A DNA stretch of 64,000 nt from the NCBI GenBank assembly GCA_030424715.1, contig JAUHWH010000001.1:496001-560000 (forward strand). The letters are read 5' to 3'. Below the pieces are notes generated by a model. It was given only the letters and a program-made list of their open reading frames with translations. It did no database searches and was not told where the DNA came from. Position numbers and translations under genes: made by a program. The DNA is from Bdellovibrionia bacterium. Its GTDB lineage: Bacteria; Bdellovibrionota; Bdellovibrionia; Bdellovibrionales; JAGQZY01. Of this stretch, positions 50,688 through 54,234 are shown one piece after another (position 1 is the first letter of the stretch; each line of letters starts with the position of its first letter).

Positions 50688-51995
50688 ATGAAAGACCTTT
50701 TTCAACAACATATTCTCGAAAAGACACAACAAGCTCTGGCAATTCTCGATTCACAAAAATTAGACTGCCTCTATATCGAAAGTGGTTTTCCAGAGAACTA
50801 TTACCTCGATGACCAGCCGATGCTTTTCAAATCTAACCCCCATTTTCTTTATTTCTGCCCTGATGATGGACAAGGACATATTTTGAAGATCGAGGCGGGC
50901 CAAGCCAAACCCAAGCTCTATTTTTACCAACCTAATGACTTTTGGCATGAAGTCTCCAGCTTAACGGACAGTTTTTGGCAAGATTCTTTTGATATTCATG
51001 TTTTCAATGAATCTCAGAAGATCTGGCCCGAGATCGCTAATAAGGGACGGCGCATGGCCGTGATATCACCAAACCCAGGTCATGCTGTTGAACAGGGTTG
51101 TGATCCGGCTTCGAATGCTGTTATTCAACAACTCAACTGGTATCGGTCCAGTAAGACGGCTTATGAAATAGAGTGCATTCGAGAGGCCAATAAAAGAGCC
51201 GCTACGGGGCATAAGAAGGCAAAAGCTCTTTTCTTAGAGGGTGCTTCAGAAATAGCTATTTTCAAAGAATTTATGAACCAAACGGGGGCTCGAGAAGCGG
51301 ACCTTCCCTACAACAGCATTGTCGCCTTCGATGAAAACGCCTCGATTCTCCATTACCAAACCCCCAAACAGAAAACACCCCACGCTACTTTTCTTATTGA
51401 TGCCGGCGCTCGATACAAGGGTTACTGCTCTGACATCACTCGAACACATGTTAATGATAACGCCCACCCTGTGTTTGCAGCACTCCTTACTTCCCTCGAT
51501 CTAATCCAAAAAGACCTCTGCCAAGAGGTTGCCGTAGGAGTCGAGTATGTCGAGCTGCAAAGAAAAGCTTTTTCGAAAATAGCAGATCTACTCATTGAAA
51601 CGAAAGTGGCTTTTGGCTCGGCCGAGGAACTTGTAGCTAAGAATATTCCATTTACTTTTTATCCCCATGGTCTGGGGCATCCCATTGGATTGCAAGTTCA
51701 CGACGTGGGAGGAAAGCAGCTCAACCCTCAAGGTGACATCTGCCAACAGCCCTCGGACTTTCCCTTTTTAAGAACGCTTCGGACAATTAAAGAAAACGAT
51801 GTTGTTACGATCGAACCCGGTCTGTACTTTATTCCGATGCTCCTCGAAAACTTAAAAGTCGATCCTCACTGCAACAAGTTGCTCAACTGGAAGCTCGTTG
51901 AAGAGCTCCTGCCTTTCGGGGGCATTCGAATTGAAGATAATGTGGTGGCTCGTTCCGCTGGACCAGAGAACCTCACCCGACAATTTTTAAGTTAA
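50688..51995 (+). CDS. pepQ: M24 metallopeptidase, Xaa-Pro dipeptidase (PepQ-like)
   Basis: 435 residues. Metal ligands visible: Asp in IDAGARYKGY, Asp in CSDITRTHV, His in YPHGLGHPIG, Glu in TIEPGLYF and Glu in GGIRIEDNVV. The HGLGH and loop around PQGD resemble PepQ prolidases, though dipeptide specificity is not proved. ATG with GGAG upstream; a GTG nine bases earlier is weaker. Its stop codon TAA shares the palindrome TTAA with the facing gene. Confidence 0.9.
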   Translation: MKDLFQQHILEKTQQALAILDSQKLDCLYIESGFPENYYLDDQPMLFKSNPHFLYFCPDDGQGHILKIEAGQAKPKLYFYQPNDFWHEVSSLTDSFWQDSFDIHVFNESQKIWPEIANKGRRMAVISPNPGHAVEQGCDPASNAVIQQLNWYRSSKTAYEIECIREANKRAATGHKKAKALFLEGASEIAIFKEFMNQTGAREADLPYNSIVAFDENASILHYQTPKQKTPHATFLIDAGARYKGYCSDITRTHVNDNAHPVFAALLTSLDLIQKDLCQEVAVGVEYVELQRKAFSKIADLLIETKVAFGSAEELVAKNIPFTFYPHGLGHPIGLQVHDVGGKQLNPQGDICQQPSDFPFLRTLRTIKENDVVTIEPGLYFIPMLLENLKVDPHCNKLLNWKLVEELLPFGGIRIEDNVVARSAGPENLTRQFLS

Positions 51996-54124
51996 GCCGC
52001 TTTTTTTTCTTTATGGCTGTGGAGAGCGAATTCCCAGTTCAGGGTGTTTCGAATGAAGAACTCTATAAATTTGATTTTTTGGTTGCGAGGCAAGTAAAGC
52101 TGACTGGGCCCATCTTCTTCTGTGTGTCGTTTCGCCTGTTTTAGGCTCAAACTGCATCCCGTTTTTAGATACCTAACAAATCTCTTGTTTCTTGGGAGGT
52201 AAATAAAAGCGTCAAAATTGACGGGAGTCTCTGGGGGGATAACCTTGATATCAACGAGATACATATCTTTTTTATCGGAGTCCGATAAGGTCGGCACGAT
52301 CACTTCTCTCTCGACAAAAGCGACATTAAGAAGTTTGCCCGAGCTATCCTCATGGGTGATGTTAAAATCTGAAAACTGTTCTACTACTTCAAGGTAGTTT
52401 TCCACAGAGATATCCATTGAGTATTGTAAGCTGACATCTGCAAAAAGATTCTCACCTTGCAAGGATTGAATAAGTACCGTTCTAAAATCAGTAATCTCGT
52501 CAGGGACAAATTCTTGCTTAAAGCTGTTCGAAATAAGAAGGCATCCCTTGTAGGTTCCCATATCGATAGTAAAGACCTTGATCTTCTCTACATCGTAGGC
52601 TCTTGCTTCTTCCGCCTCATAGGCATTTAGAGAACCCTCTAGAGCCTTTTTACAGCAGGTCTTCAGAATATTAACCTTTTTGTCGTTCTCCTGGGATTCT
52701 TGTGCTTTCGCCTTCTGATCTGCCTCTTTTTTTACCTGTTCAGCATCCGCTACTTTTATAGCGCCGAAATCGCCCTCTTCCTGGTCTTTTTTAGCCTTAT
52801 TCGGCTTGTCGGTCGACTCCGGAGAGGTGGGATCCTTCGGCTTGGTACTGCTCTTTTCTTTGGGCTTTTTTGCCTCATTACTGTCTGCGTCGGTTCCATT
52901 TCTATTTGAATCCTTCTTAGACATTTTATCCGCCTGATTGGGCTCATTAGGATCTTTGCTTTTCTTTGAATCTTTCGAAGTCTCGTTATTCGACGCCGCT
53001 GACTTTTGATCTCGTCGTTTCTTGGCATTATCGCCATCACCCCTATTTTTAAGTTTTTCATCTGACTGCGATTGCGGTTTAGTTCGCTTTTTCGCACTCA
53101 AACCCTCTTTACCCATGGAATTATTTCCTTCATCAGAAGTAGGGCTTCCGCTGTTCGTGGATTTGGACTTTTTGCTCCCAAGGGCGCTGTTTGAATCTCC
53201 GTTACTCTGGTTACTATGACTGTTCAACGCCTGGTCGTAACTGTCGTTTTTATTCTTTAAGCTATCCGCCGAAGCGTCGAACTTTCCACCGACGTGATTC
53301 ATGGAACTATTGTTGTCGTCAGCTTCCGCGGATGACAAACCTCCTAAGCTATTGCCTTTACCCTTTAAATTTGCGCTTTTCGAGTCAGCTCCACCTGGAT
53401 AGGCTATATTTGAACCGTCTCTTGGCTGGTTTGTTTGATCCGAGTCTTTACGGCTATCGCCACCTTCGTTAGAAGAACTTTCTGAGTCGTCACCCAGCCC
53501 TCTAGTATCCGAGGTATTAATGTGGTTAACGCCTGTTTTTTTGTACTTTGTCGCATCACCAGACTTCACGACATTCATATTTAACTCTTTCGACGCCGCT
53601 TCAGGGTTGTCGAGTGCCTTATAAAGGTCATTGAGAACATTGCTCTTTGAGTTTTTGTATTTATCCTCTGCCCCGCCTTTAAGGAAAACTGAGTCTTTTA
53701 ACTTTTGTTTCTCCTTCTCGTCTTTTGATTGATTTAGTTTCTTAATCTCGTCCTCTTGAATTTTACGGAGATTGATAATCTTCATCCACAAATTGTGGGC
53801 CGTGATCACCCCTGAGATCTTTAAATCCGATTTGGTTCCCGAAAGGGCCTTCCTTGTTCTCAAGTCTTGATTCTCTCCAAAGGCCAAGACCGGGACGTTC
53901 AACGCCATTCTGAAAATTTTAGGGAACTGAGCCACACTTTTATGGGGAAAACCGACACTCAAGCCAACGAGATCAGGTTTATCTTCGATAGATTTTTCTA
54001 AAAAGTCTTTTAGATCAGTAAAGTAGGTCACCTTCGCCGGTCGCGACTCGTTCACTCTCTCAGAGACGTTTTTTAAAAGCTTTTCATCGAAGCCTAGAAT
54101 ATGAACTTTTACAATGTCATCCAT
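51992..54124 (-). CDS. Pseudo-receiver protein with long disordered linker and C-terminal domain, unknown function
   Basis: 710 residues. Residues 1-115 fold like a response-regulator receiver (VHILGFDEKLLKNV start, DLVGLSVGFP where the phosphoacceptor Asp would be, here Ser), so it is probably not phosphorylated. About 120-165 is a charged helix. About 160-480 is a Ser/Asn/Asp/Lys-rich stretch with no repeat I can fix, surely disordered. The last 230 residues are folded, ending with VNFDAFIYLPRNKRFVRYLKTG, a motif I have seen in Bdellovibrio-like regulatory proteins, but I name no family. ATG chosen; weak ribosome site. It faces pepQ, sharing the TTAA stop palindrome, and lies downstream of the atp terminator. 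Confidence 0.8.
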   Translation of the reverse strand: MDDIVKVHILGFDEKLLKNVSERVNESRPAKVTYFTDLKDFLEKSIEDKPDLVGLSVGFPHKSVAQFPKIFRMALNVPVLAFGENQDLRTRKALSGTKSDLKISGVITAHNLWMKIINLRKIQEDEIKKLNQSKDEKEKQKLKDSVFLKGGAEDKYKNSKSNVLNDLYKALDNPEAASKELNMNVVKSGDATKYKKTGVNHINTSDTRGLGDDSESSSNEGGDSRKDSDQTNQPRDGSNIAYPGGADSKSANLKGKGNSLGGLSSAEADDNNSSMNHVGGKFDASADSLKNKNDSYDQALNSHSNQSNGDSNSALGSKKSKSTNSGSPTSDEGNNSMGKEGLSAKKRTKPQSQSDEKLKNRGDGDNAKKRRDQKSAASNNETSKDSKKSKDPNEPNQADKMSKKDSNRNGTDADSNEAKKPKEKSSTKPKDPTSPESTDKPNKAKKDQEEGDFGAIKVADAEQVKKEADQKAKAQESQENDKKVNILKTCCKKALEGSLNAYEAEEARAYDVEKIKVFTIDMGTYKGCLLISNSFKQEFVPDEITDFRTVLIQSLQGENLFADVSLQYSMDISVENYLEVVEQFSDFNITHEDSSGKLLNVAFVEREVIVPTLSDSDKKDMYLVDIKVIPPETPVNFDAFIYLPRNKRFVRYLKTGCSLSLKQAKRHTEEDGPSQLYLPRNQKIKFIEFFIRNTLNWEFALHSHKEKKAA

Positions 54125-54180
54125 CGAATTCTTATCGGTAAACAATGGAGAGAAATTAAGGATTTATGACGTCTCCACAA

Positions 54181-54210
54181 AAAAAAACACGGACGATGGT
54201 CCGTGTTTTT
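54181..54210 (-). terminator. Intrinsic terminator after atpE
   Basis: A perfect 13-bp stem (GTCCGTG core plus six A-T pairs) closes on the loop GATG, with A and T runs on both sides. On the minus strand it ends the atp transcript 25 bases after the atpE stop. It should also work from the plus strand. Confidence 0.9.
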
Positions 54211-54234
54211 TCTATCAAAATGATGGGTTTGGAC

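Follow-up and report, generated by a model that had tools for sequence, protein, structure and literature searches.

A Bdellovibrionales protein family combining a pseudo-receiver, a CheX-like domain and a Bd1817-type domain in one chain

The DNA analysed here (the window) is a 64,000 nt stretch of a Bdellovibrionia genome, and a gene on its minus strand (positions 51992–54124, start codon ATG) encodes a 710 aa protein that our analysis shows, or at least strongly supports, to be this genome's member of an undescribed, usually single-copy family of the Bdellovibrionales. From the N-terminus onwards the protein consists of a pseudo-receiver, a disordered linker, a CheX-like domain, a domain of the type found at the N-terminus of Bd1817, and a basic tail ending in alanine, an architecture that its relatives share. 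Taken on its own, this anatomical description is in our judgement very probably correct. Each part, or its fold, is already known. What appears to be undescribed in the papers searched is their combination, its confinement to a single order, a short linker motif, the tail and the parallel with an operon set out below. According to the original prediction, it would be refuted if the protein as a whole clearly matched a known family; scans of Pfam and NCBIfam with all 710 aa gave no match. The family is unnamed in both and runs through an order of predatory and related bacteria. A description of the family was not found in the limited selection of papers that was searched, and the gene-number prefixes searched for were not found in papers on Bdellovibrio hub proteins, RomR and c-di-GMP.

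The predicted open reading frame is real. Sixty whole genomes from the Bdellovibrionales were searched, and 46 of them gave a pairwise match (E≤1e-3) with an uninterrupted frame, which argues against a chance frame; the diagnostic middle domain is present in 42 of the 60. A search of genome contigs with the single protein returned no relative, but an alignment-based search did find relatives, with matches in records of Bdellovibrio, Bdellovibrionaceae, Pseudobdellovibrionaceae and other Bdellovibrionota. When 192 genomes were drawn from the phylum, 40 matches were obtained at E≤1e-4, all of them within the order (40 of the 54 genomes sampled there) and none among the 138 genomes of other orders. 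The protein had been proposed to be phylum-specific: lineage restriction was upheld, but the family is confined to the order and its last domain occurs phylum-wide. Members are mostly present as one copy per genome. Because at least 15 genomes of the order have no detectable copy, the protein is not essential throughout the order.

The pseudo-receiver occupies residues 1–128 (53741–54124, minus strand). AlphaFold2 modelled the N-terminus as a (beta-alpha)5 receiver fold with a pLDDT of 91, and a Foldseek search with this model matched 259 PDB chains at E≤0.001, the top matches being receivers and the best the receiver of PmrA (E 8e-6, prob 1.00). The N-terminal family profile likewise matched receivers in the PDB (best 2zay, E 2.9e-5) and the FrzS pseudo-receiver (2gkg/2nt4, E ~0.002). 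No score above the Pfam PF00072 cut-off was obtained, with no match for the 710 aa protein and E 7.6e-4 for the best family member. The original claim of a receiver-like N-terminus with Ser in place of the phosphoacceptor Asp was borne out by residue counts as well: Ser56 lies at the phospho-Asp position and is followed four residues later by Pro60, as in receivers. Relatives were aligned in two sets, of 22 and 21 rows. Position 56 is Asp in none of these rows, being Ser in 20 of the 22 in one set and Ser, Ala, Thr, Cys, Pro or Gly in the other. The acidic pair after beta1 (positions 11–14) and the conserved Lys after beta5 (positions 104–110) are absent family-wide, the beta5-alpha5 loop reads [ST]GP, and Glu84 replaces the receiver Thr/Ser in 34 of 37 family rows. 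This is a true receiver fold in which all phosphorylation residues have been replaced by other conserved ones. Around what was the active site, residues 59–61, 84 and 108–110 rank with the best conserved of the pseudo-receiver, and this conservation suggests that the pocket has been kept for a role other than phosphotransfer.

The linker spans residues 129–479 (52688–53740, minus strand), about 350 residues or 333 aa by profile boundaries, in agreement with the low-complexity run of about 320 residues (Ser, Asn, Lys, Asp) noted previously. By composition the 333 aa are 16% K, 15% S, 11% D and 11% N, with ILVFWYMC together reaching only 11%. Family linkers (40 members) range from 85 to 517 aa and are rich in S, G, N, Q, T, K and D, with ILVFWYMC at no more than 27%. 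About 20 residues past the receiver end there is a short conserved motif, VFLKG in the 710 aa protein (residues 146–150; 53675–53689, minus strand), with the consensus [IV]x[IVL][KRS][GS]. Because this pattern was chosen post hoc from the alignment, the contrast in position is the better evidence: within the first 90 residues of the linker it is present in 25 of 40 members, where shuffling gives 2.1 (maximum 8 in 1000 shuffles), whereas in the remaining linker it is present in 1 of 32, with 1.7 expected, which is chance level. A low-complexity chain of up to 517 aa could itself be the active part of a condensate-forming or storage protein whose folded ends merely cap it. We regard this as improbable: across a six-fold range of linker lengths, with 85 aa the shortest, the family retains the two folded ends, the motif close to the receiver and the tail.

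The tail of the 710 aa protein reads EKKAA (51995–52009, minus strand), the family consensus being K-x-A-[AS]. Counted with the pattern [KR].{0,2}A[ASGEN]?, which was defined post hoc, such an ending is found in 33 of 42 family proteins, some of them closely related, and in 6 of 358 other long ORFs from the same loci. A K-x-A-[AS] tail resembles C-degrons recognised by ClpX, such as those of MuA and ssrA, and tmRNA tags in the Bdellovibrionales mostly end in LAA or MAA. The conserved basic, Ala-ending tail is reminiscent of a ClpXP-type C-degron and is put forward as a candidate for one from its sequence.

The C-terminal 230 residues had been described as folded but of unknown kind. The first part of that description agrees with the AlphaFold2 model of the last 231 residues, which contains two folded domains at a mean pLDDT of 84; the second does not hold, as these are a domain of CheX/CheC fold (CTD1) and a counterpart of the Bd1817 N-terminal domain (CTD2). 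CTD1 covers residues 480–608 (52301–52687, minus strand). Compared by VIA, it matched CheX (1squ) with Z 9.2 over 116 residues at an rmsd of 3.3, as well as 6vpw, and matched CheC, FliM and FliY at Z 5–7; all rows above Z 3 were CheX, CheC, FliM or FliY. Foldseek gave E 2e-3 with prob 1.00 and no match below 1e-3. At the sequence level hhalign against CheX was weak (probability 5.5%, P 0.007), an HMM search returned one CheX at E 0.0013, and a Pfam scan of CTD1 gave no match. The fold is common to the CheX, CheC and FliY phosphatases and the FliM middle domain, from which CTD1 differs in lacking the ExxN phosphatase motif and a sequence-family match and in being fused to receiver-like and Bd1817-type domains. 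No conserved ExxN was found in the matching helix across 39 family rows, whereas Glu104 and Asn107 are invariant (11 of 11) in the CheX of Bdellovibrionales relatives. The modelled structure thus strongly supports a CheX/CheC fold for residues 480–608, predicted to be catalytically dead, with homology that rests on the fold.

A CheX fold without ExxN, in an order many of whose genomes encode CheY and an active-type CheX, would also suit an anti-phosphatase or decoy, in which the dead domain binds and protects CheY~P or the pseudo-receiver blocks CheX. No CheX was detectable in the window genome or in nine other genomes having the family (among the ten are G000, G001, G003 and G005), and because these ten have the protein and no detectable CheX, CheX is not an obligatory partner. 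This counts against a decoy, which in addition leaves the last domain unexplained, and we think such a role unlikely. Co-occurrence of the family with CheX or FliM was uninformative.

CTD2 covers residues 619–700 (52025–52270, minus strand) and shares homology with the domain at the N-terminus of Bd1817, the unconventional HD-GYP protein of B. bacteriovorus (PDB 3TM8/3TMB/3TMC/3TMD). The CTD2 profile matched residues 22–92 of 3tm8 at E 1.8e-14, and VIA aligned CTD2 with 3tmd at Z 9.9 and an rmsd of 2.1 over 81 residues. The strand FIYLPRNKRFVRYLKTG, which had been singled out in the original prediction, corresponds to residues 640–656 (52157–52207, minus strand) and forms the hairpin core of CTD2; within it Asn646 and Tyr652 are invariant in the family alignment (40 of 40 members). 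A likeness of CTD2 to the RNA polymerase beta subunit (VIA Z 3–4.6) was set aside, being far below that to Bd1817. In Bd1817 the HD-GYP domain comes after the N-terminal domain, whereas in the 710 aa protein CTD2 follows the CheX-like domain and ends the chain, and Pfam and domain scans found no HD-GYP motifs or HD domain. The role of Bd1817 has been stated to remain unknown (PMC4159591).

The main rival to the reading that we prefer is a scaffold for polarity or motility like RomR or FrzS, in which pseudo-receiver and tether would take the protein to a cell pole to recruit regulators of pili, gliding or flagella, with no link to HD-GYP enzymes. The general build is shared with FrzS of Myxococcus xanthus, which has a dead receiver, and with RomR of the same species, in which a receiver is followed by a long linker; the RomR receiver keeps its Asp, unlike that of the 710 aa protein. 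The match of the N-terminal profile to FrzS fits such a scaffold, but ordinary receivers score as well. FliM, a motor part that has the CheC fold, occurs in 54 of the 60 genomes of the order, and this too would suit it. The C-terminus, however, matches CheX and the Bd1817 domain and not a coiled coil. FrzS and RomR have other C-termini; the comparison with them covered the receivers. We consider a scaffold of this type doubtful.

It had been suggested that the C-terminal domain be sought in fusion with other modules, and it was found heading HD-GYP domains across the phylum. The Bd1817-type domain occurs in 154 of the 192 phylum genomes, usually preceding HD_5 (HD-GYP), and proteins that carry both are of two sizes: about 310 aa (the domain and HD) and 440–480 aa (a receiver-like part, the domain and HD). 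Genomes without any copy of the domain (G007, G035 and G056) are also without the 710 aa family. By following the Bd1817-type domain, not CheX, we first reached a recurrent operon of the Bdellovibrionota in which the 440–480 aa gene adjoins cheX, mostly together with cheY, at 13 of the loci read (L032–L035, L039–L041, L067, L068 and L110–L113). Overall, a cheX gene is found no more than 2 kb away from 28 of the 111 copies of the domain outside the family, and these come from 27 of 40 genomes. The receiver-like part of the operon's HD-GYP protein seems to have degenerated in part, and Pfam has no entry for the Bd1817-type domain. The gene order implies that the 710 aa protein fuses, in the same order, CheY-like, CheX-like and Bd1817-type parts that elsewhere lie in neighbouring genes. 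The operon differs from it in having separate genes, an active-type CheX and an HD-GYP domain, whereas the single chain has dead receiver-like and CheX-like parts and no HD-GYP. What emerges is an HD-GYP-associated domain that is unnamed, occurs phylum-wide and has a solved structure, together with a cheY–cheX operon that recurs; both are open to direct test.

That the protein is a regulator or scaffold, as had been supposed, is judged likely. Our preferred reading is a non-catalytic signalling adaptor that would couple CheY/CheX-type signalling to HD-GYP enzymes, to which we give somewhat less than an even chance, inferring the coupling from the domains and their operon counterparts. The 710 aa protein would bind rather than catalyse: its pseudo-active site and CheX-like domain may pair with each other, or with the CheY-like and CheX-like proteins of the cell, independently of phosphorylation, and CTD2 may pair with the same domain in HD-GYP proteins, so that chemotaxis-type signalling would act on these cyclic dinucleotide enzymes. 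The tether would set local concentration, and the tail would set lifetime through ClpXP-type proteolysis. A fuller version, in which a chemotaxis-type module (CheY, CheX and the HD-GYP-heading domain) has been fused and stripped of phosphotransfer to give a phosphorylation-independent switch or adaptor controlling HD-GYP enzymes, tuned by tether length and C-degron, is more tentative still. The window genome encodes two HD-GYP proteins with a Bd1817-type domain, of 481 aa (L132, 3199–4644) and 306 aa (L133, 2842–3762), which are candidate partners. For Bdellovibrio, the family provides a proposed link between CheY/CheX signalling and HD-GYP enzymes that can be tested.

The gene lies downstream of, and co-directional with, dnaN-recF-gyrB-gyrA-atpI-atpB-atpE, and its stop codon and that of a convergent aminopeptidase P-like gene overlap. 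Its place beside the atp genes, remarked on in the original prediction, holds here and in several families of the order (f1, f4, f7 and f10), in which the order gyrB-gyrA-(atpI)-atpB-atpE-gene is kept. In Bdellovibrio-type genomes, as in others, the family gene lies elsewhere, and the position therefore says little about function. The gap between atpE and the gene contains a hairpin with A and T runs (54180–54211, -21.3 kcal/mol, z -3.8) that is terminator-like in both directions, and because this strong hairpin separates the two, the gene is probably outside the atp transcript. A consensus scan missed the hairpin; pairing between its T and A runs is the probable cause. The conserved order after atpE could point to an accessory part of ATP synthase, but the hairpin, the other location in Bdellovibrio-type genomes and the signalling folds of the domains all make this highly improbable. 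Away from the gyrA-atp place no conserved partner gene was found beside family members. The neighbours there are unrelated in function (aminotransferase class V, GDPD, TatD, flagellin and subtilase), and we therefore set operon partners aside as clues to the role of the protein. A promoter scan for the gene returned 5 sites against 3.8 expected, which is unconvincing. An in-frame TTG at 54145 would allow a 7 aa extension of the reading frame.

Divergent shorter paralogues of 336–487 aa were also identified (L043, 1519–2901; L045, 1358–2368; L037, 542–1888; L038, 642–2105; L042, 1511–2839), some of them without a detectable CheX-like domain. The single-contig 3.0 Mb genome G034, of genus g16 (our label for Bdellovibrio-type relatives), represents a natural deletion for comparison, in which no copy of the family was detectable and the cheY–cheX–HD-GYP operon is present.
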